From Williamsia sterculiae (lineage in GTDB: Bacteria > Actinomycetota > Actinomycetes > Mycobacteriales > Mycobacteriaceae), in the NCBI RefSeq assembly GCF_900156495.1, contig NZ_FTNT01000012.1, positions 1 through 64,000 of the forward strand: DNA of 64,000 nucleotides. The letters run 5' to 3'. The notes beneath the pieces were generated by a model. That model did not search any database. It was not told where the DNA came from and worked only from the letters and a program-made list of their open reading frames with translations. A program made the translations under genes and the position numbers. Of this stretch, positions 18,879-26,480 are shown piece by piece; position 1 is the first letter of the stretch, and each line of letters begins with the position of its first letter.

Positions 18879-19466
18879 TCAGACACCGTCCAGCACGATG
18901 TCCACCGCGGCCGCGATCACCTCGTCGCTGGGCAGCTCGTCCCACATGAGCGTTGCGCAGACCACAACTCCCGACAGCATCGATACCGCAGCGTCGAACG
19001 ATGGTCCCTGCGCCACCGTGGCCAACATGCTGCGCAATGGTCGTTCGCCCTCGGTCACGAGGCGTTCACGGATCCGACGGATCTCGTCGACGGTCACCCC
19101 CCACTGCGCGAGCACGATGAGGATGCGGTCGAGCTTGTAGTCCGACACCGCTCTGCGGAACGCCGTCAGTTCGGCTATGAGATCGGTACGCAGTTCCCCG
19201 GTCGGCTCGAGGTGTGGCATCTCCCCCACTGCATCCAACGCGATCGTCACCAGATCCAGCCGCGACGGCCAGTGGGTGTACAGCGTCGTCTTGGAGTATC
19301 CGGCGACGTCGGCCACATGGGCGTGGGTGATGGCGTCCCAGCTCTCTTCGGTCAACACCTGTAGAGCGGCGCGGCCCACGTCGGCGCGGGTCCGGGCGAC
19401 CCTGGCGTCCTCGGTCGAATCGGCCGACCTGCGACCCGGAACGGGCGGTGCCATCTCTTCACTCAC
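18879..19466 (-). CDS. TetR family transcriptional regulator, divergent from MAA operon
   Basis: Regulator of 195 residues with an N-terminal TetR_N domain (about 24-72): RADVGRAALQVLTEESWDAI, then HVADVAGYSKTTLYTHWPSRLDL. The C-terminal half resembles the TetR_C group with RRAVSDYKLDRILIVLAQWG. It is transcribed away from the HAD-mys operon across a 213-bp gap with palindromes, the standard arrangement for a local repressor. It is therefore the leading candidate regulator of sunscreen synthesis; its ligand is unknown. Confidence 0.88.
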   Translation of the reverse strand: MSEEMAPPVPGRRSADSTEDARVARTRADVGRAALQVLTEESWDAITHAHVADVAGYSKTTLYTHWPSRLDLVTIALDAVGEMPHLEPTGELRTDLIAELTAFRRAVSDYKLDRILIVLAQWGVTVDEIRRIRERLVTEGERPLRSMLATVAQGPSFDAAVSMLSGVVVCATLMWDELPSDEVIAAAVDIVLDGV

Positions 19467-19679: not shown

Positions 19680-20351
19680 ATGTCCGCCATCTTGTTCGGT
19701 TCCATCAGCACTCTCGCCGACACCTCCGAGCTCCAGCGGCAGGCGTTCAACGACGCCTTCTCCGCCCACGAGCTGGGATGGAACTGGAGTCGTGACGACT
19801 ATGTCGCGATGTTGGGCTCCAACGGCGGCGCCAAGCGCATCGCCGAGTTCGCGGCCTCCACCGGCGACGACGTCGACGCCGATGCTGTCCATGCGACGAA
19901 ATCGGAGATCTTCCAGCGCCTCCTCGCGTCGTCCGGGGTGTCCCCGCGACCAGGTGTGGTGCCGACGATCGAAGCGGCCAAGGCTGCCGGGGTCCGGGTG
20001 GGATTCGTGACCACCACCTCGCGGGACAACATCAATGCCCTCCTCACGGCCCTCGCACCGGAGATCGACACCGATACCTTCGACATCGTCGTCGACTCCG
20101 GTTCCGTCGACCATCCCAAGCCAGAGGCCGACGCGTACACCTTCGCTCTCAGCGAACTCTCCACCACCTCAGACGAGATCGTGGCCATCGAAGACAACGT
20201 GGGCGGTGTCGCGGCCGCCGATGCCGCCGGGATCCGCACGATCGCCTTCCCCAACGACAACACCTCCGGCGGCGACTTCTCCGCTGCGGCAGTCACGGTC
20301 GCCTCCCTCGACCCGCAGCACGTCCTCGACCTCGTCCGAGACCACGCGTGA
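19680..20351 (+). CDS. HAD-like protein lacking catalytic aspartates (CbbY/IA subfamily)
   Basis: A 223-residue HAD-fold protein, first gene of the MAA operon. Residues 5-12 read LFGSISTL where active enzymes have the pattern LFDxDGTL, so the nucleophile Asp (position 7) and the acid/base Asp (position 9) are Gly and Ile. The other motifs remain: a threonine in VTTTSRDN, the lysine in HPKPEADAY, and the acidic [15 protein letters not shown]. The helical cap segment (about 15-80) is present. Phosphatase action by the usual route seems impossible, so a binding, regulatory or structural role is more likely. I recall a group of HAD-like proteins with this FGS motif but not a function. It ends 64 nt before mysA. 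Confidence 0.8.
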
Positions 20352-20415
20352 ACGTCGACCCGACAACAACTTTCGTCCTTCAACTGGCCCTTCCGGCCAT
20401 GAACCAGGAGACTCC

Positions 20416-21648
20416 GTGAGCAACCTACAAGCTGCGGTCACCGCCGACAGCAGGTCTTTCCACGTCGAGGGTTACGAGAAGATCGAGTACGACCTCGTCT
20501 ACGTCGACGGCGTGTTCGACATCGACAATGCCGAACTCGCCGACCGGTACCGGCCCTATGGGCGGTGCTTGATGGTTGCGGACGAGACGGTCGAACGACT
20601 CTACGGCGCGCAGATCGAGGCCTACTTCGAACACCACCGGATCGCACTGACCGTGGTGGGAGTGCAGATTCGCGAGACGGCCAAGTCGCTGGAGACATTC
20701 GAACAGATCGTGGCGGCGTTCGACGCCTTCGGGCTGGTGCGTACCGAACCCGTGCTGGTGGTCGGCGGGGGGCTGACCACCGACGTCGCCGGTTACGCCT
20801 GTGCCAGCTATCGACGCAACACCCCGTACATCCGTATTCCCACCACCTTGATCGGACTGATCGACGCCAGTGTGTCGATCAAGGTCGCGGTGAATTACGG
20901 CAAGCACAAGAACCGACTGGGCGCATACCACGCCTCGGAGCTGGTGATCCTGGACTTCTCGTTCTTGGCCACGCTGCCGGAGGATCAGGTGCGCAACGGG
21001 ATGGCTGAGCTGATCAAGATCTCGGTGGTCGGGAACCTGGAGATCTTCGAGCTCCTGGAGAAGCACGGACCCGACCTGTTGCGCACCCGGTTCGGACACC
21101 TCGACGGAACTCCTGAGTTGCGTGCCATCGGCGGCCGGGTGACCTATGAGGCCATCGCCACGATGTTGGAGCTCGAGGCGCCGAACCTCCACGAGATCGA
21201 CCTCGACCGCGTCATCGCGTTCGGTCACACCTGGAGTCCGACTCTGGAATTGACGCCGCCGGTGCCGTTCTTCCACGGACACGCCATCGCCATCGACATG
21301 GCCCTGTCGACCACGCTGGCCGAACTGCGCGGGCACCTCACCATCGCCGACCGCGACCGGGTGCTGACGGTGATGAGCGATCTGGGTCTGGCCCTGGACA
21401 GCGAACATCTCACCCCGGAACTGCTGACCGCCGCAACGGCATCAATCCTGCGGACCCGCGACGGCCTGCTGCGGGCGGCCATCCCCGATCCCATCGGATC
21501 GTGCCGGTTCCTCAACGACGTGACCACCGAAGAGCTCACGGATGCACTGCGTCTACACAAGAAGATCTGCTTCGACCACGCCCGGGAGGGTGACGGGGTC
21601 GACATGTTCACACTCGCCGACACGGCGTCGCCCACCGTCTCGTCGTGA
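20416..21648 (+). CDS. mysA: Desmethyl-4-deoxygadusol synthase (MysA)
   Basis: A dehydroquinate synthase-like sugar phosphate cyclase of 410 residues, the length of cyanobacterial DDGS. It would convert sedoheptulose 7-phosphate to desmethyl-4-deoxygadusol with NAD and a metal. Seen: the NAD-binding [20 protein letters not shown] (about 113-132), [20 protein letters not shown], and metal ligands E198 (GMAELIK), H271 (GHTWSP) and H287 (FFHGHA). The close relatives EEVS (valiolone synthase) share this fold; the mysB-C-D genes behind it decide for DDGS. GTG at 20416 has aggag 6 nt upstream. Longer frames reach into the HAD gene and were rejected. Confidence 0.93.
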
Positions 21649-22499
21649 CCGGACCGCGAGTGGCCGCGCGACCGGTCACCCCGACCACCATCGTCGCCGC
21701 AGAACTCGATCGGATCTGCGCCGACCTGGACCGCTTCGAGGGCATCGAGCCGGCGACGACGGCCCGGTTACGACGGGTCCGTGACATCGCCGCCGGACTC
21801 GATCCCTACCTCGACGGGTGTACGTCACCGGAGTCACCCGCGTTGGCCGACCTGGCCCGGTCGACTCGTGAGATCGACTGGGACGCCGACGATGCGGCGG
21901 ACGGGTTCGTGGAGAAAGAGATGCTGTCGGGACATGTCGAGGGCCGGTTGCTCCGATTTCTCGTCACCATGACACGCGCGACGCGTGTCCTGGAGATCGG
22001 CGTGTTCACCGGTTACTCGGCGCTGGCGATGGCCGAGGCACTACCCCGAGAAGGATCGGTGGTGGCCTGCGAGCTCGACCGCAAGGTGGCCGGACGGGCG
22101 CGCGAACTGCTGAACGCGTCCGTCGCCGGCAAGCGGGTGACCATCGAGGTCGGTCCGGCCACCGACACGCTGCGACGGCTCGCCTCGCAGTCCCGCTCCG
22201 GACCGGATTCCCGTTTCGACCTGGTGTTCATCGACGCCGACAAGGCCGGCTACATCGACTACCTGAACACGCTTCTCGACAGCGATCTGCTGACCGACCA
22301 TGCCGTGATCGCCGTGGACAACACCCTTCTCCAGGGTGAGCCGTATCTGGTAGCCGAGAGCCGCTCGACCAACGGGGCGGCCATCGCCGAGTTCAACGAG
22401 GTGGTGGCCGCGGATCCCCGCGTCGAGCAGGTGCTGATACCCGTGCGTGACGGCCTCACCCTCATTCGCCGTCTCGCCCCGGCCACGGGGGAACGGTGA
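21645..22499 (+). CDS. mysB: MAA O-methyltransferase (MysB)
   Basis: SAM-dependent O-methyltransferase of 284 residues, of the caffeoyl-CoA-OMT-like family. Motif I is [20 protein letters not shown] (about 113-132), the acidic residue follows in VACELD, and [16 protein letters not shown] holds the metal-binding aspartates. In the MAA pathway it methylates desmethyl-4-deoxygadusol to 4-deoxygadusol. Its GTG overlaps the mysA stop by four bases (GTGA). The N-terminal 90 residues are an added helical region as in other MysB proteins. Confidence 0.93.
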
Positions 22500-23815
22500 C
22501 CGTCGTCTCCCGGGACTCCCTCAGGACCGTGGGAGCGCTGGTGGGTCTGACGGCCACGTTGCCCGTCGATCTGGTGCTGGTCGGCGCAGCGTTGGCCACC
22601 CGCAGGTTCCGTCACCCACCCGTCGTGGAAAGGGTCTCGGCCACCGACCGCAAGACGGTGCTGATCAGCGGGGGCAAGATGACCAAAGCGTTGCAACTGG
22701 CCCGATCGTTCCACGCTGCCGGACATCGCGTCGTACTGGTGGAATCCGGCAAGTACCGCTGGACCGGCCACCGGTTCTCGCGGGCCGTCGATGCGTTCCA
22801 TTGTGTGCCCGAGGCGACCGCTCCGGGTTACGCGGACGCGGTGGCCGCGGTGGCCCGCCTCGAGGACGCCGACGTCTTCGTGCCGGTGTCGAGTCCCGCG
22901 GGCAGTGCCGCCGACGCCGACGCCGGGGCGGTGCTCGCGGGGGTCTGCGACACCGTGCACGCCGACCCCGCGACGGTGCGCACCCTCGACGACAAGGCCG
23001 CGTTCTCCCGGACCGCGGAGTCGTTCGGACTGCGCGTTCCCGACTTCGTGCTCATCACCGACGCCGCACAGGTCGAGACGTTCGATTTCCCACCCGACCG
23101 GACGTACATCCTCAAGCGCATCGCCTACAACCCCGTGGGCCGGATGGATCTCACCCCGCTGCGTGCGACCACGCCCGAGCACAACAGGGCGGTCGCCCGC
23201 GCCCGCGACATCTCGCCCGACGATCCCTGGATCCTGCAGGAGTTCATCGACGGCACCGAGTTCTGCACCCACGGCACCGTCCGCGACGGACGGCTCCAGG
23301 TCTACGGCTGCTGCGAGTCCTCGGCGTTCCAGATCAACTACGCGATGATCGACAAACCCGAGATCCGGTCATGGGTGGAGCACTTCGTGTCCGGGCTGCA
23401 GGTCACCGGACAGTTGTCATTCGACTTCATCGAGAGCGCAGACGGTACGGTGTACGCCATCGAGTGCAACCCACGCACCCACTCGGCGATCACGATGTTC
23501 TACGACCACCCCGACGTTGCCGCCGCATATCTGCAGACCGGCCACCCCGTCATCGAACCCCGCCCCACGGCGCGCGCCACCTACTGGATCTATCACGAGC
23601 TGTGGCGATTGCTGACCCAACACAATCGTCGCGCTCGGTTGAGCACCATCGTGCGGGGCACCGACGCGATCTTCACCTGGGACGACCCATTGCCCTATCT
23701 CATGGTGCACCATCTGCAGATCCCGTCGTTGCTCATCCGCAGCCTGCGTTCGGGACGCGGATGGAGTCGGATCGACTTCAACATCGGCAAACTCGTCGAG
23801 ACCGGCGGGGACTGA
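22496..23815 (+). CDS. mysC: Mycosporine-glycine synthase, ATP-grasp ligase (MysC)
   Basis: ATP-grasp ligase of 439 residues that would join glycine to 4-deoxygadusol, giving mycosporine-glycine. Residues 9-34 are a hydrophobic, possibly membrane-bound segment, also known in cyanobacterial MysC. Family-specific stretches are ISGGKMTKALQLARSFH, WILQEFIDGTEFCTHGTVRD, the ATP/metal site YAIECNPRTHSAITMFYDHP, and the C-terminal IDFNIGKLVETGGD. The match to MysC is unusually close along the whole length. GTG overlaps the mysB stop (GTGA). Confidence 0.95.
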   Translation: MTVVSRDSLRTVGALVGLTATLPVDLVLVGAALATRRFRHPPVVERVSATDRKTVLISGGKMTKALQLARSFHAAGHRVVLVESGKYRWTGHRFSRAVDAFHCVPEATAPGYADAVAAVARLEDADVFVPVSSPAGSAADADAGAVLAGVCDTVHADPATVRTLDDKAAFSRTAESFGLRVPDFVLITDAAQVETFDFPPDRTYILKRIAYNPVGRMDLTPLRATTPEHNRAVARARDISPDDPWILQEFIDGTEFCTHGTVRDGRLQVYGCCESSAFQINYAMIDKPEIRSWVEHFVSGLQVTGQLSFDFIESADGTVYAIECNPRTHSAITMFYDHPDVAAAYLQTGHPVIEPRPTARATYWIYHELWRLLTQHNRRARLSTIVRGTDAIFTWDDPLPYLMVHHLQIPSLLIRSLRSGRGWSRIDFNIGKLVETGGD

Positions 23816-23822
23816 GCCCACC

Positions 23823-24839
23823 GTGCGAACCATCCTGCATCTCGCCGGGTCACCCACCGACGACTTCCACGCCGAGTTGTCGCGCTTGTACGCCGCCGAC
23901 TGCGTGTCCACACTCACCGATTCCGCGCGCTACCGATTCCTACTCGCCTACGTCGGTCCCGACGGACTGTGGCGGTTCCCCGCTGCGTTCGACCCGGACT
24001 CCATCGCCGCCGCATCAGCGTTGCCGCTGCGAGCCGCCCTGGACCACATCGCCGCCAGCGGCGTCGACGCGGCACTGCCACAAATGTTCTGCCGAACCGG
24101 GATGACGTCGTACCGGGCGCTGCTCGACGTCCTCGGGATTCCGTATGTCGGCAACACCCCGACCGCCATGGCCATCACCGCGGACAAGTCGATCGCGCGC
24201 AGCATCGTCGCAGGAGCCGGGGTGGACGTGCCGGATGCCGAGGTCGTGCGGGGTGTCGGCGCCACCACCCTGCATCCACCGATGGTCGTCAAACCCGTGG
24301 ATGCCGACAACTCGGTCGGGGTCACCCTGGTGCGAGACCCCGCGGATCTCGCCGCGGCGGTGGCCGTCGCAACGCAGCACTCGAACGCCGCACTGGTGGA
24401 ACGCTATGTCGAACTCGGCCGCGAGGTGCGCTGCGGCGTCGTCGTCGACGCCGGGTCGCTGCGGTGTCTGCCGTTGGAGGAATACGCCGTCGACCCGGAC
24501 GTCTCACCGGTTCGCACCGCCCGAGACAAACTGGCCCGCAACGAGTCCGGTGAGCTGTTCCTGGTCGCCAAGGACGTGTCCCGGGCCTGGGTCGTCCCGC
24601 CGGACGACCCGATCACCTCGGCGGTGTGGGAGGCGGCGCGGCGCTGTCACGTCGCTCTGGGGTGCCGGCACTACAGCCTGTTCGATTTCCGGATCGATCC
24701 GGTCGGCAGACCATGGTTTCTCGAGGCGGGTCTCTACAACTCGTTCGCCCGGGGCAGTGTGCTCACCACGATGGCTGCTGCCGCCGGCATCGACCCCGCC
24801 CGGCTCTTCGACATCGCGCTCGGAGAACTGTTCGCCTGA
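23823..24839 (+). CDS. mysD: D-Ala-D-Ala ligase-like MAA ligase (MysD)
   Basis: ATP-grasp ligase of 338 residues. MysD adds a second amino acid (serine, threonine, glycine and others) to mycosporine-glycine, forming the imine that shifts absorption into the UVA, for example shinorine or porphyra-334. Family stretches are PQMFCRTGMTSYRALLDVLG, IPYVGNTPTAMAITADKS, MVVKPVDADNSVGVTLV and the metal site FRIDPVGRPWFLEAGLYNSF. The substrate choice depends on a loop I cannot model here. It starts with GTG 7 nt after mysC. Its presence instead of an NRPS-like MysE separates this cluster from the Anabaena type. Confidence 0.93.
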   Translation: MRTILHLAGSPTDDFHAELSRLYAADCVSTLTDSARYRFLLAYVGPDGLWRFPAAFDPDSIAAASALPLRAALDHIAASGVDAALPQMFCRTGMTSYRALLDVLGIPYVGNTPTAMAITADKSIARSIVAGAGVDVPDAEVVRGVGATTLHPPMVVKPVDADNSVGVTLVRDPADLAAAVAVATQHSNAALVERYVELGREVRCGVVVDAGSLRCLPLEEYAVDPDVSPVRTARDKLARNESGELFLVAKDVSRAWVVPPDDPITSAVWEAARRCHVALGCRHYSLFDFRIDPVGRPWFLEAGLYNSFARGSVLTTMAAAAGIDPARLFDIALGELFA

Positions 24840-24865
24840 CCCGTCCGACGACATGAGGAGGACTC

Positions 24866-25639
24866 GTGGACGCAGCACTGACACGACCGCTCGGAGCTCG
24901 CGTGTCCGACCTCCGGGTCGATGCGTTGAACGACGCCGATCGGGACGAACTGGTCGGCCTGCTGGCCCGCGTCGGGGTCGTCGTCGTGCCGGGTCAGCAC
25001 CACACGGATGACAGCGCGTTCACCCGGTTCCTGCACAGTCTGGGGCCGATGATGTTCACCGTCGGCGAGACGCCAGTGCCCGACCATCCGGATCTCAACG
25101 TCATCAGCAACATCGGACGCGCGACACCACCACGCTCGAGCTTCCACGTCGATACCAGCTATGTGGCCCGCCCCCCGGTGTACACCGCACTGCGCGCCGT
25201 CGACGTACCCCGATGTGGTGGTCAGACGCTGTTCAGCGACCAGTACGCCGCCTACGACACACTGCCGACCGAACTACGGCGATCCCTCACCGGGTGTCAG
25301 GTGACTCACGTGGTGACCGGTCTCGACCTCGGCGACGACGCCGAGACCACGGCCCGGCATCCCCTCTTCCTCCGTCACCCGATCTCCGCCAGAACGGCCC
25401 TGTATCTCTCGACGCCGCAACGATGTGTCGCGGTGGACGGTATGACTCCCGACGAGTCGGCCGCGATCGTCACCCACCTGTATGAGCACTCGACTCGCGA
25501 AACCAACCTTCTCCGACACCAATGGGCAGCAGGCGACGTGGTCATCTGGGACAACCGATGCGTGATGCATCGCGCCGACCATTCCGGGGTGGTCGGTGAC
25601 CGGGTGATGCATCGCGGGATGGTCGCGGGCCCGTGGTGA
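24866..25639 (+). CDS. mysH: Fe(II)/2-oxoglutarate-dependent oxygenase (MysH-like)
   Basis: TauD-type oxygenase of 257 residues. Iron ligands are H94 and D96 (FHVDTSY) and H235 (WDNRCVMHRAD); R250 in MHRGMV would bind 2-oxoglutarate, and GGQTLFSD supplies the TauD threonine. In cyanobacteria the equivalent last gene, MysH, converts disubstituted MAAs such as porphyra-334 and shinorine into palythines. GTG at 24866 has aggagg 6 nt upstream, and the gap to mysD is 26 nt, so it belongs to the operon. A taurine or sulfonate role is less likely, because no sulfonate genes are near. Confidence 0.85.
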   Translation: MDAALTRPLGARVSDLRVDALNDADRDELVGLLARVGVVVVPGQHHTDDSAFTRFLHSLGPMMFTVGETPVPDHPDLNVISNIGRATPPRSSFHVDTSYVARPPVYTALRAVDVPRCGGQTLFSDQYAAYDTLPTELRRSLTGCQVTHVVTGLDLGDDAETTARHPLFLRHPISARTALYLSTPQRCVAVDGMTPDESAAIVTHLYEHSTRETNLLRHQWAAGDVVIWDNRCVMHRADHSGVVGDRVMHRGMVAGPW

Positions 25640-25663: not shown

Positions 25664-25957
25664 TCAGGCGGACCGGGCAACGGTCCGGGTGAGCTCGGCG
25701 GCGGACGACCCACCCCAGACACCCCACCGCTCACCGGCGCGCACCGCGTGCTCGCGGCATTGGCGCAACACCGGGCAGTCACGGCAGACCGAGGTGGCCT
25801 GCTCCTCGCGACGGCGGCGGGCGGCCGACGACTCGCGACCGATGGGTTCGAAGAAGAGCTCCGGATCCACGTCGGCGCCGCAGCACCGCCCGCGGACCTG
25901 CCAATTCCACTCCGAGATGTCGTCCACATGCGCCTGGTCGGGGCGGTATCCGTCCAT
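25664..25957 (-). CDS. WhiB family iron-sulfur transcriptional regulator
   Basis: A 97-residue Wbl protein. Four cysteines, one in RGRCCGAD and three in VCRDCPVLRQC, bind a [4Fe-4S] cluster, and RWGVWGG is the family turn motif. DPELFFEP is also typical. Such proteins sense oxygen or nitric oxide and work with the housekeeping sigma factor. It is convergent with mysH, 24 bp apart. The C-terminus is short, with few of the basic residues expected for strong DNA binding. I cannot assign it to a numbered WhiB class. Confidence 0.93.
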   Translation of the reverse strand: MDGYRPDQAHVDDISEWNWQVRGRCCGADVDPELFFEPIGRESSAARRRREEQATSVCRDCPVLRQCREHAVRAGERWGVWGGSSAAELTRTVARSA

Positions 25958-26050
25958 ACCCGCATCGTCGGTCAGGCACCCCGGTCCACAACAGCTTTGG
26001 CGCCCGCAGAATTCAAACGCTTGACATCCGCCACCGTCGAACCGGTGACG

Positions 26051-26221
26051 TCAGTCCGGTGGTTCGACGGTCGGCCGCCCCTCATCCGCATCCGCGTCGG
26101 AGGCACCATCGCCGGCATCTGCCACGTGGCGATCTGCGGCGTCGCCACCCCGTTCGGAGTTGACGTTCTCCTCGAGTTCGTCGACGGTCTCGGCGAGGTC
26201 GTCATCACGGTTTCCGGTCAT
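26051..26221 (-). CDS. Small acidic protein, 56 residues
   Basis: An open frame of 56 residues with a strong ribosome site (caggagg, 5-6 nt before ATG). The product is very acidic, with an N-terminal helix-like stretch DDDLAETVDELEENV followed by a Gly/Ala/Asp-rich tail. No domain is recognised. It lies 93 bp upstream of the whiB start on the same strand and may share a transcript. The rest of the 25958-26480 gap shows only presumed promoters for whiB and the dehydrogenase. Confidence 0.55.
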   Translation of the reverse strand: MTGNRDDDLAETVDELEENVNSERGGDAADRHVADAGDGASDADADEGRPTVEPPD

Positions 26222-26480
26222 CACAGCCTCCTGCCCTCTGCCGTTACCCTACGCGGATGCGGTGACCACCGAGAGCGGGGTGGGTGCGGGCGCCGTCATC
26301 ATTACCAATCACGCTCGACCACAGCGGTTCTCGGTATGTCAACCACTCTTCGTCGACTCGCTCGGTCGACACTCGGCGTAGGGTCGGGTTCGGCAGTCGA
26401 AACATGCGCGCTGTACCGATGTCGATTAACGACGGCGATGCTCAGGTAGCCGATCGCACGTCGGGACGAGGAGTGTGCAC

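Follow-up and report, generated by a model that had tools for sequence, protein, structure and literature searches.

Shinorine clusters of Actinosynnema mirum and Pseudonocardia, and with them the mysABCD core for mycosporine-like amino acids (MAAs), natural UV sunscreens, in actinomycetes, were reportedly described by Miyamoto in 2014. The GATOR-GC report (PMC11888242), in its available text, describes genes for a HAD protein and a TauD/TfdA oxygenase as well conserved (>60%) in actinobacterial MAA windows, states that both are absent from Cyanobacteriota and that no previously known MAA cluster had either, and leaves the role of the HAD protein open. It also refers to an unpublished study (Osborn and Mahmud 2018) of a Rhodococcus fascians D188 operon with HAD and TauD genes, which yielded shinorine, palythine and palythine-serine. 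The name MysI has been given to TauD/TfdA oxygenases from MAA clusters of cyanobacteria, and palythines are proposed to have arisen at least twice (PMC10510106). Here we analyse an MAA operon of Williamsia sterculiae, a soil-type actinobacterium, that combines mysABCD with both of these genes, located in the first 64,000 nucleotides of contig NZ_FTNT01000012.1 (assembly GCF_900156495.1; this whole stretch is hereafter the window). Its HAD protein is most likely not a phosphatase but a conserved pseudo-phosphatase, and its oxygenase belongs to the TauD family rather than to MysH.

Six co-directional genes on the forward strand, in the order HAD, mysA, mysB, mysC, mysD and oxygenase, span positions 19680–25639. 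The operon is complete, as the original prediction from the sequence had held, and its family matches are far above chance. The description of the genes as mostly overlapping was overstated; 4-bp overlaps occur at two of the five junctions (mysA/mysB and mysB/mysC), and the remaining three are gaps of 64, 7 and 26 bp. The cyclase of the 2-demethyl-4-deoxygadusol synthase (DDGS) type, the O-methyltransferase, the MysC ATP-grasp protein and the MysD ligase that together define a shinorine-type MAA cluster are all present, and the gene set recurs among relatives with its order mostly kept.

The first gene (19680–20351, + strand), entered plainly as 'HAD' in the original prediction, where the loss of motif I was passed over, encodes a 223-residue protein with a CbbY-type HAD fold (HAD_2, 1.5e-21). 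The closest solved structures are those of CbbY (4uat_A and 4uar_A, 4e-37), and an AlphaFold2 (AF2) model with a pLDDT of 96.2 superimposes on 4uar with a Z score of 30.2 and a root-mean-square deviation of 2.0 over 220 residues. Motif I, which has the form DxDx[TV] with both catalytic aspartates and reads DVDGT in CbbY, is GSIST in the window protein (residues 7–11; 19698–19712, +), with Gly7 in place of the nucleophile and Ile9 in place of the acid/base aspartate. Because the aspartate that forms the phospho-enzyme is missing, the protein is most likely not a phosphatase, and we rejected its identification as an ordinary member of that class. It is best described, on the evidence of these residues, as a probable CbbY-derived pseudo-phosphatase.

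The altered motif is a property of the whole group. Of the 98 distinct HADs from clusters, 97 match the pattern GS[IL]x[TSV], the three cyanobacterial copies among them, and the remaining copy is frame-broken. With that copy (L094) left out of the residue table, Gly7 and Ser8 are present in 97/97 sequences and Ile9 in 96/97. Ten CbbY-like paralogues, a set from which a near-copy (L177) and a dead stand-alone protein (L208) were omitted, have aspartate at both motif I positions in 10/10 cases; paralogues elsewhere in similar genomes read FDxDGT, intact, and the near-copy reads FDVDGT. Ten other positions (R20, N24, R53, H71, K74, R90, T111, K147, E171 and D172) are invariant in 97/97 cluster HADs, among them the residues of motifs II (T/S; T111), III (K; K147) and IV (ED; E171, D172), and all ten are common to the paralogues except that T111 is Ser in one. 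Four further positions, S16, Q19, N173 and N194, are both altered and fixed in the cluster HADs. Median ratios of non-synonymous to synonymous substitution (dN/dS) across 12 of the 17 non-overlapping close pairs are 0.037 for mysA, 0.061 for HAD, 0.091 for mysC, 0.124 for mysB, 0.145 for mysD and 0.147 for tauD, values that point to strong selection on the HAD gene. The frame-broken copy, from Mycobacterium sp. AT1, shifts frame after residue 79 in a cluster that is otherwise intact, by mutation or sequencing error.

The HAD gene occurs where MysC occurs. MysC was found in 55 of 401 family-sample genomes and in 7 of 396 phylum-sample genomes, two samples that share some genomes and that both count the window genome, and strong HAD matches came from exactly these 55 and these 7 genomes. 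One further family genome (G028) has only a 34% HAD paralogue with an intact motif. Given this confinement to MysC genomes in both samples, a housekeeping role for the HAD was rejected. The best 80 of 311 confirmed relatives are mostly from Mycolicibacterium/Mycobacterium, Rhodococcus/Rhodococcoides and Williamsia, and also include Aeromicrobium, Pseudonocardia, Kineosporia, Klenkia, Nocardioides, others and four cyanobacterial records; as only these 80 were kept, distant clusters are under-sampled. As some genomes contribute to both the family and the named loci, we counted distinct sequences, with acceptance set at more than 30% identity for TauD and more than 45% for HAD. The 172 loci hold 136 distinct MysC sequences: 95 lie with both HAD and TauD, 33 with neither, 2 with HAD only (L120 and L170) and 6 with TauD only. 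The six TauD-only loci are truncated upstream by a contig end, and in one of these genomes (G262) the HAD lies on another contig.

All 33 distinct MysC sequences with neither gene are from cyanobacterial genomes (32 loci of a cyanobacterial survey, and L157, for which the absence of HAD was judged on the locus alone). The cyanobacterial sample was centred on a genome (G782) chosen for having both genes. In three cyanobacterial contigs (L151, L156 and L163) HAD and TauD are paired and run divergently from mysABCD. The 30 other surveyed cyanobacterial genomes, which account for 32 of the 33 loci, have no HAD above 37% and no TauD above 33% identity genome-wide, and their best HAD relatives reach 30–37% at most. 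Weak TauD matches number five (30–33%), in 4 of these 30 genomes; around four of the five (L228–L231) no mysA–D or HAD match was found, and nothing in the surrounding lists of open reading frames (ORFs), on which no family search was run, is recognizable as mysF or mysE.

The MysC sequences of L151, L156 and L163 fall inside the cyanobacterial clade (SH-aLRT 99) in a tree built from 69 of the 172 loci, and their HADs fall among the actinobacterial HADs (96/89), a grouping that loses its star when the long-branched L208 row is removed; a constraint uniting all non-cyanobacterial HADs gave an approximately unbiased test value (p-AU) of 0.0503. For TauD, the cyanobacterial sequences branch as sister to all the others (87/82), and a topology that joins them to the two actinobacteria closest in the HAD tree was not rejected (p-AU 0.375). 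These trees are no more than suggestive of a joint transfer of the HAD and TauD genes from actinobacteria to the MAA clusters of cyanobacteria. The HAD may tend to travel with the TauD oxygenase; a strict tie between the two was not upheld, given the two clusters that keep HAD without TauD. As a separate observation, cyanobacterium G842 has a lone HAD (L232:9352–10053, − strand; 33% identity) with a similar dead motif (VGSIGT...ETSELQRE), about 334 kb from its own MAA cluster, which is without TauD. This suggests a wider family of dead HADs.

The last gene of the operon (24866–25639, +) encodes an oxygenase for which a Pfam search gave PF02668 (TauD; 6.4e-52) and nothing else. Its AF2 model has a pLDDT of 95.4, and the top fold matches are AAD-1 and PlaO1, with taurine-type enzymes also among them. 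The HxD...H triad, which had been predicted to be intact, is present (H94 and D96 at 25145–25153, +; distal H235 at 25568–25570), as is a candidate 2-oxoglutarate (2OG) arginine (R246, 25601–25603), as expected of an Fe(II)/2OG oxygenase. All four residues are invariant in the 34 aligned cluster copies, L110 having been left out for a stop in the chosen frame; alignments A2 and A3 were built from a selection of 49 and 34 rows, respectively. The ligand pattern is found in 100 of 101 distinct oxygenase copies, the exception (L107) being without its C-terminal part at a contig end.

The original label of MysH for this enzyme is not borne out. Two MysH candidates encoded some 3 kb away from MAA genes in cyanobacteria (L181 and L188) are PF05721 (PhyH) proteins. 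BLASTP found no similarity between them and the window oxygenase, and profile comparison of the cluster oxygenases with them (hhalign) gave probabilities of 0.7% and 0.2%, in a comparison that used these two candidates rather than biochemically proven MysH. As a TauD/TfdA member within an MAA cluster, the enzyme appears, by family and cluster position, to be properly labelled MysI-class. A kinship with taurine dioxygenases, which the original prediction had named as telling against its own reading, holds at the level of the superfamily and fails for the taurine dioxygenase equivalog, as the NCBIfam model NF007104 gives 119.5 bits against a cut-off of 313. Because the taurine model is missed and the Fe/2OG ligands are kept in 34/34 copies, the idea of a palythine product survives the change of family. 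With a TauD/MysI-class enzyme here rather than MysH, the palythine step seems to have evolved in each of two oxygenase families that are not related; for cyanobacteria, PMC10510106 had suggested two origins of this step. A side observation concerns two loci, L037 and L096 (the latter from Rhodococcus sp. 1168), each on a contig of 210089 bases, in which TauD aligns only partly, at 34% compared with about 60% in neighbours; the gene there is probably broken or misassembled.

For the chemistry of MysA–MysD and the palythine step we draw on established knowledge and published work. The mysA gene (20416–21648, +) starts with GTG, preceded by an AGGAGA-like site, and encodes a DHQ_synthase-family sugar phosphate cyclase (4.4e-30). 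It matches the structure 5tpr_A (7e-164, 548.6 bits), which we take to be the Anabaena DDGS, compared with 284.7 bits for 4p53, presumably the EEVS ValA. The cyclase is thus of the DDGS type, as predicted, and because it is far closer to 5tpr than to 4p53 the placement with EEVS that would have told against the prediction does not apply. A second, divergent MysA lineage (37–39% to the window MysA) occurs in some of the MAA clusters of actinobacteria and cyanobacteria (L172:10292–11539, −; L173:9490–10779, −; L200:3447–4799; L219:5262–6623); in it IDAGPSPRTC replaces a stretch of 12 residues, and the L172 copy is still a DHQ-synthase-family protein. The mysB gene (21645–22499, +) encodes an O-methyltransferase (Methyltransf_3, 4.3e-46). 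The product of mysC (22496–23815, +), the ATP-grasp protein expected to join 4-deoxygadusol and glycine into mycosporine-glycine, matches NF005315/PRK06849 at 6e-118 with 394 bits, slightly below the cut-off of 406, and has a single, sub-threshold Pfam match; it is 57–72% identical to relatives in the family sample and falls among the MysC proteins of mys clusters in the tree. The mysD gene (23823–24839, +) encodes a D-Ala-D-Ala-ligase-like ligase (Dala_Dala_lig_C, 1e-15). In our alignment its omega loop carries the pair L247 and A255 (24561–24587, +), a pattern that, by the rule in the available text of PMC11983340, goes with serine, and we therefore predict a serine (shinorine) preference for this MysD.

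Taken together, MysA would cyclize sedoheptulose 7-phosphate, MysB would O-methylate the product to 4-deoxygadusol, and MysC and MysD would add glycine and serine, respectively, at the expense of ATP, to give shinorine. The MysI-class Fe(II)/2OG oxygenase would then hydroxylate the glycine side chain next to the nitrogen, and loss of the hydroxylated glycine part would leave a palythine amine, chiefly that of palythine-serine. The HAD would act as a non-hydrolytic accessory, most likely in concert with the oxygenase module or as a sugar-phosphate binder that serves the cyclase. We are fairly confident that the operon makes a palythine-type MAA by way of a MysI-class oxygenase, with the HAD as such an accessory; the product and every function of the HAD are what we infer. 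A palythine-type product had been predicted originally, and it is still the likeliest outcome, although not a new one in view of the available text of PMC11888242.

Several points weigh against this reading. The sole report of the product is unpublished and reaches us second-hand. Cyanobacterial MysI is proposed to act on the C3 glycine and not at C1 (PMC10510106, in the part available), which bears on regiochemistry, and the window oxygenase is treated as MysI-class by family rather than through a shown kinship with Nostoc MysI. The omega-loop rule applied to MysD derives from cyanobacterial enzymes. As for the HAD, a protein without the aspartate could still do other chemistry, and an invariant Ser8 lies between the two lost positions; the genomes of the two HAD-only loci have no TauD (at E 1e-20 for L120 and at E 1e-15 for L170, genome G609), which speaks against the HAD being a partner of the oxygenase alone; and the evidence for joint transfer of HAD and TauD is borderline.

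We favour a role for the HAD as a non-hydrolytic partner of the pathway. On balance, we think it probable that actinobacterial and a few cyanobacterial MAA clusters contain a dedicated CbbY pseudo-phosphatase that is needed for palythine-type sunscreens and tends to travel with TauD. The link to the oxygenase comes from the divergent HAD–TauD pair in three cyanobacterial contigs as against neither gene in the 33 other distinct cyanobacterial loci. A possible, less likely alternative is that the HAD acts for the MAA core and not for the oxygenase step; it might, for example, present sedoheptulose 7-phosphate to MysA or protect it. The HAD gene is the first of the operon and adjoins mysA, and L120 and L170 (the latter on a long branch) retain HAD without TauD, which also disfavours a role for the HAD as oxygenase partner only. 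Moreover, the titles of 4uat and 4uau record CbbY D10N mutants crystallized with a bound ketose (xylulose) bisphosphate; a dead CbbY can therefore still hold a sugar phosphate, which makes binding of, for example, the MysA substrate by the HAD a reasonable alternative. Set against service to the core are the 33 distinct cyanobacterial MysC loci without a HAD nearby and the absence of anything beyond the 30–37% relatives across 30 of their genomes, from which the core can evidently do without a HAD, as well as the pairing of HAD with TauD, away from mysABCD, in L151, L156 and L163.

It is unlikely that the HAD retains enzymatic activity, whether through another nucleophile or by converting an MAA intermediate in some other way. 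Motifs II–IV persist, the replacement motif is conserved as well, and Ser8 stands invariant between the two lost positions, as a re-tuned site would show; the nucleophile position is nevertheless Gly, and the acid/base position Ile, in essentially every copy (97/97 and 96/97). We also consider it improbable that the TauD protein alters the MAA in some other way, such as hydroxylation or action at C3, with an end product different from the palythine proposed here. The 2OG oxygenase superfamily is versatile. The proposal of the C3 glycine as the MysI substrate (PMC10510106, same part) would fit such a change, and the palythine and palythine-serine reported second-hand for the R. fascians operon stand against it. 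That the HAD is a decaying relic is very improbable: both catalytic aspartates are lost, but its median dN/dS (0.061) is the second lowest in the operon and led us to reject decay, only 1 of 98 distinct copies is frame-broken, and co-occurrence with MysC is strict. Least credible of all is a true PhyH-family MysH orthologue, an identity we rejected, since the enzyme shares with MysH the expected reaction class and a terminal position in a mysABCD operon but is TauD and not PhyH by Pfam, has AAD-1, PlaO1 and taurine-type enzymes as its top fold matches, and resembles neither PhyH candidate by BLASTP or profile.

Divergent from the operon lies a gene for a TetR-family protein (18879–19466, − strand; TetR_N, 5.1e-7). 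Homologues that are likewise divergent and lie less than 600 bp upstream of HAD were found in 22 of 53 HAD-bearing family loci (window excluded) and in 41 of 73 HAD-bearing named loci, a set that overlaps the first; counted as distinct HAD-bearing loci with the window included, the figure is 51 of 98. The phylum set had none (0/5). The gene may belong to the locus and is a candidate regulator of sunscreen production. Directly downstream of the operon, an ORF at 25748–26449 (+) has no Pfam match and no relative in the fetched loci, and is probably not a gene.

This combination of genes and the product expected from it are already known from the GATOR-GC report and the R. fascians work it cites; the original prediction had been unsure whether the version with what it called MysH had been described, and PMC11888242 describes this gene set. 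Among the matches listed in the open-licence literature, only that paper bears on this HAD, together with PMC10510106 for TauD, and in its main text the words catalytic, aspart-, inactive and motif are absent. The new point is the HAD, which is without what an ordinary HAD phosphatase needs and whose dead motif is fixed in all 97 intact copies. This shifts the question of its role to binding, complex formation and flux, and not only phosphate release. The signature FGSIST...SELQR provides a sharp marker for finding such clusters, and the finding may help in rebuilding palythine production in a heterologous host.

Rhodobacter sphaeroides CbbY (4uar, 4uat and 4uau), which we take to be a xylulose-1,5-bisphosphate phosphatase, has the fold in common with the HAD, about 36% identity and the same motifs II–IV; the HAD differs in that both motif I aspartates are gone and in that, just after motif I, S16 replaces Glu and Q19 replaces His. 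For the shinorine clusters of A. mirum and Pseudonocardia, neither HAD nor TauD appears to have been reported, as PMC11888242 implies; this comparison is one of descriptions rather than of sequences. MysI of Nostoc sp. UHCC 0926 (PMC10510106) is of the same family as the window oxygenase and belongs to an MAA pathway, in which it is proposed to form palythine through a destabilized hydroxylated glycine; its gene is plasmid-borne, in mysF-mysI-mysE and separate from mysABC, with the proposed action at the C3 glycine, and the words haloacid and HAD-like are absent from the available text. The mysABCJ1D1G1H cluster of Nostoc sp. UHCC 0302 (PMC11378024) likewise joins mysABCD to a 2OG oxygenase that leads to palythine variants, but its MysH is described as a phytanoyl-CoA dioxygenase whereas the window enzyme is TauD, and haloacid does not occur in the text available. 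The clusters of Pseudonocardia alni and R. fascians D188 (PMC11888242, as available) contain the same gene families, with palythine-type products known second-hand, and no essential difference in gene content from the window is apparent. Contrary to the statement in that text on Cyanobacteriota, HAD and TauD are present here in three cyanobacterial contigs (L151, L156 and L163). With the oxygenase label settled as TauD/MysI-class, the W. sterculiae cluster is one more member of the kind reported in 2025.

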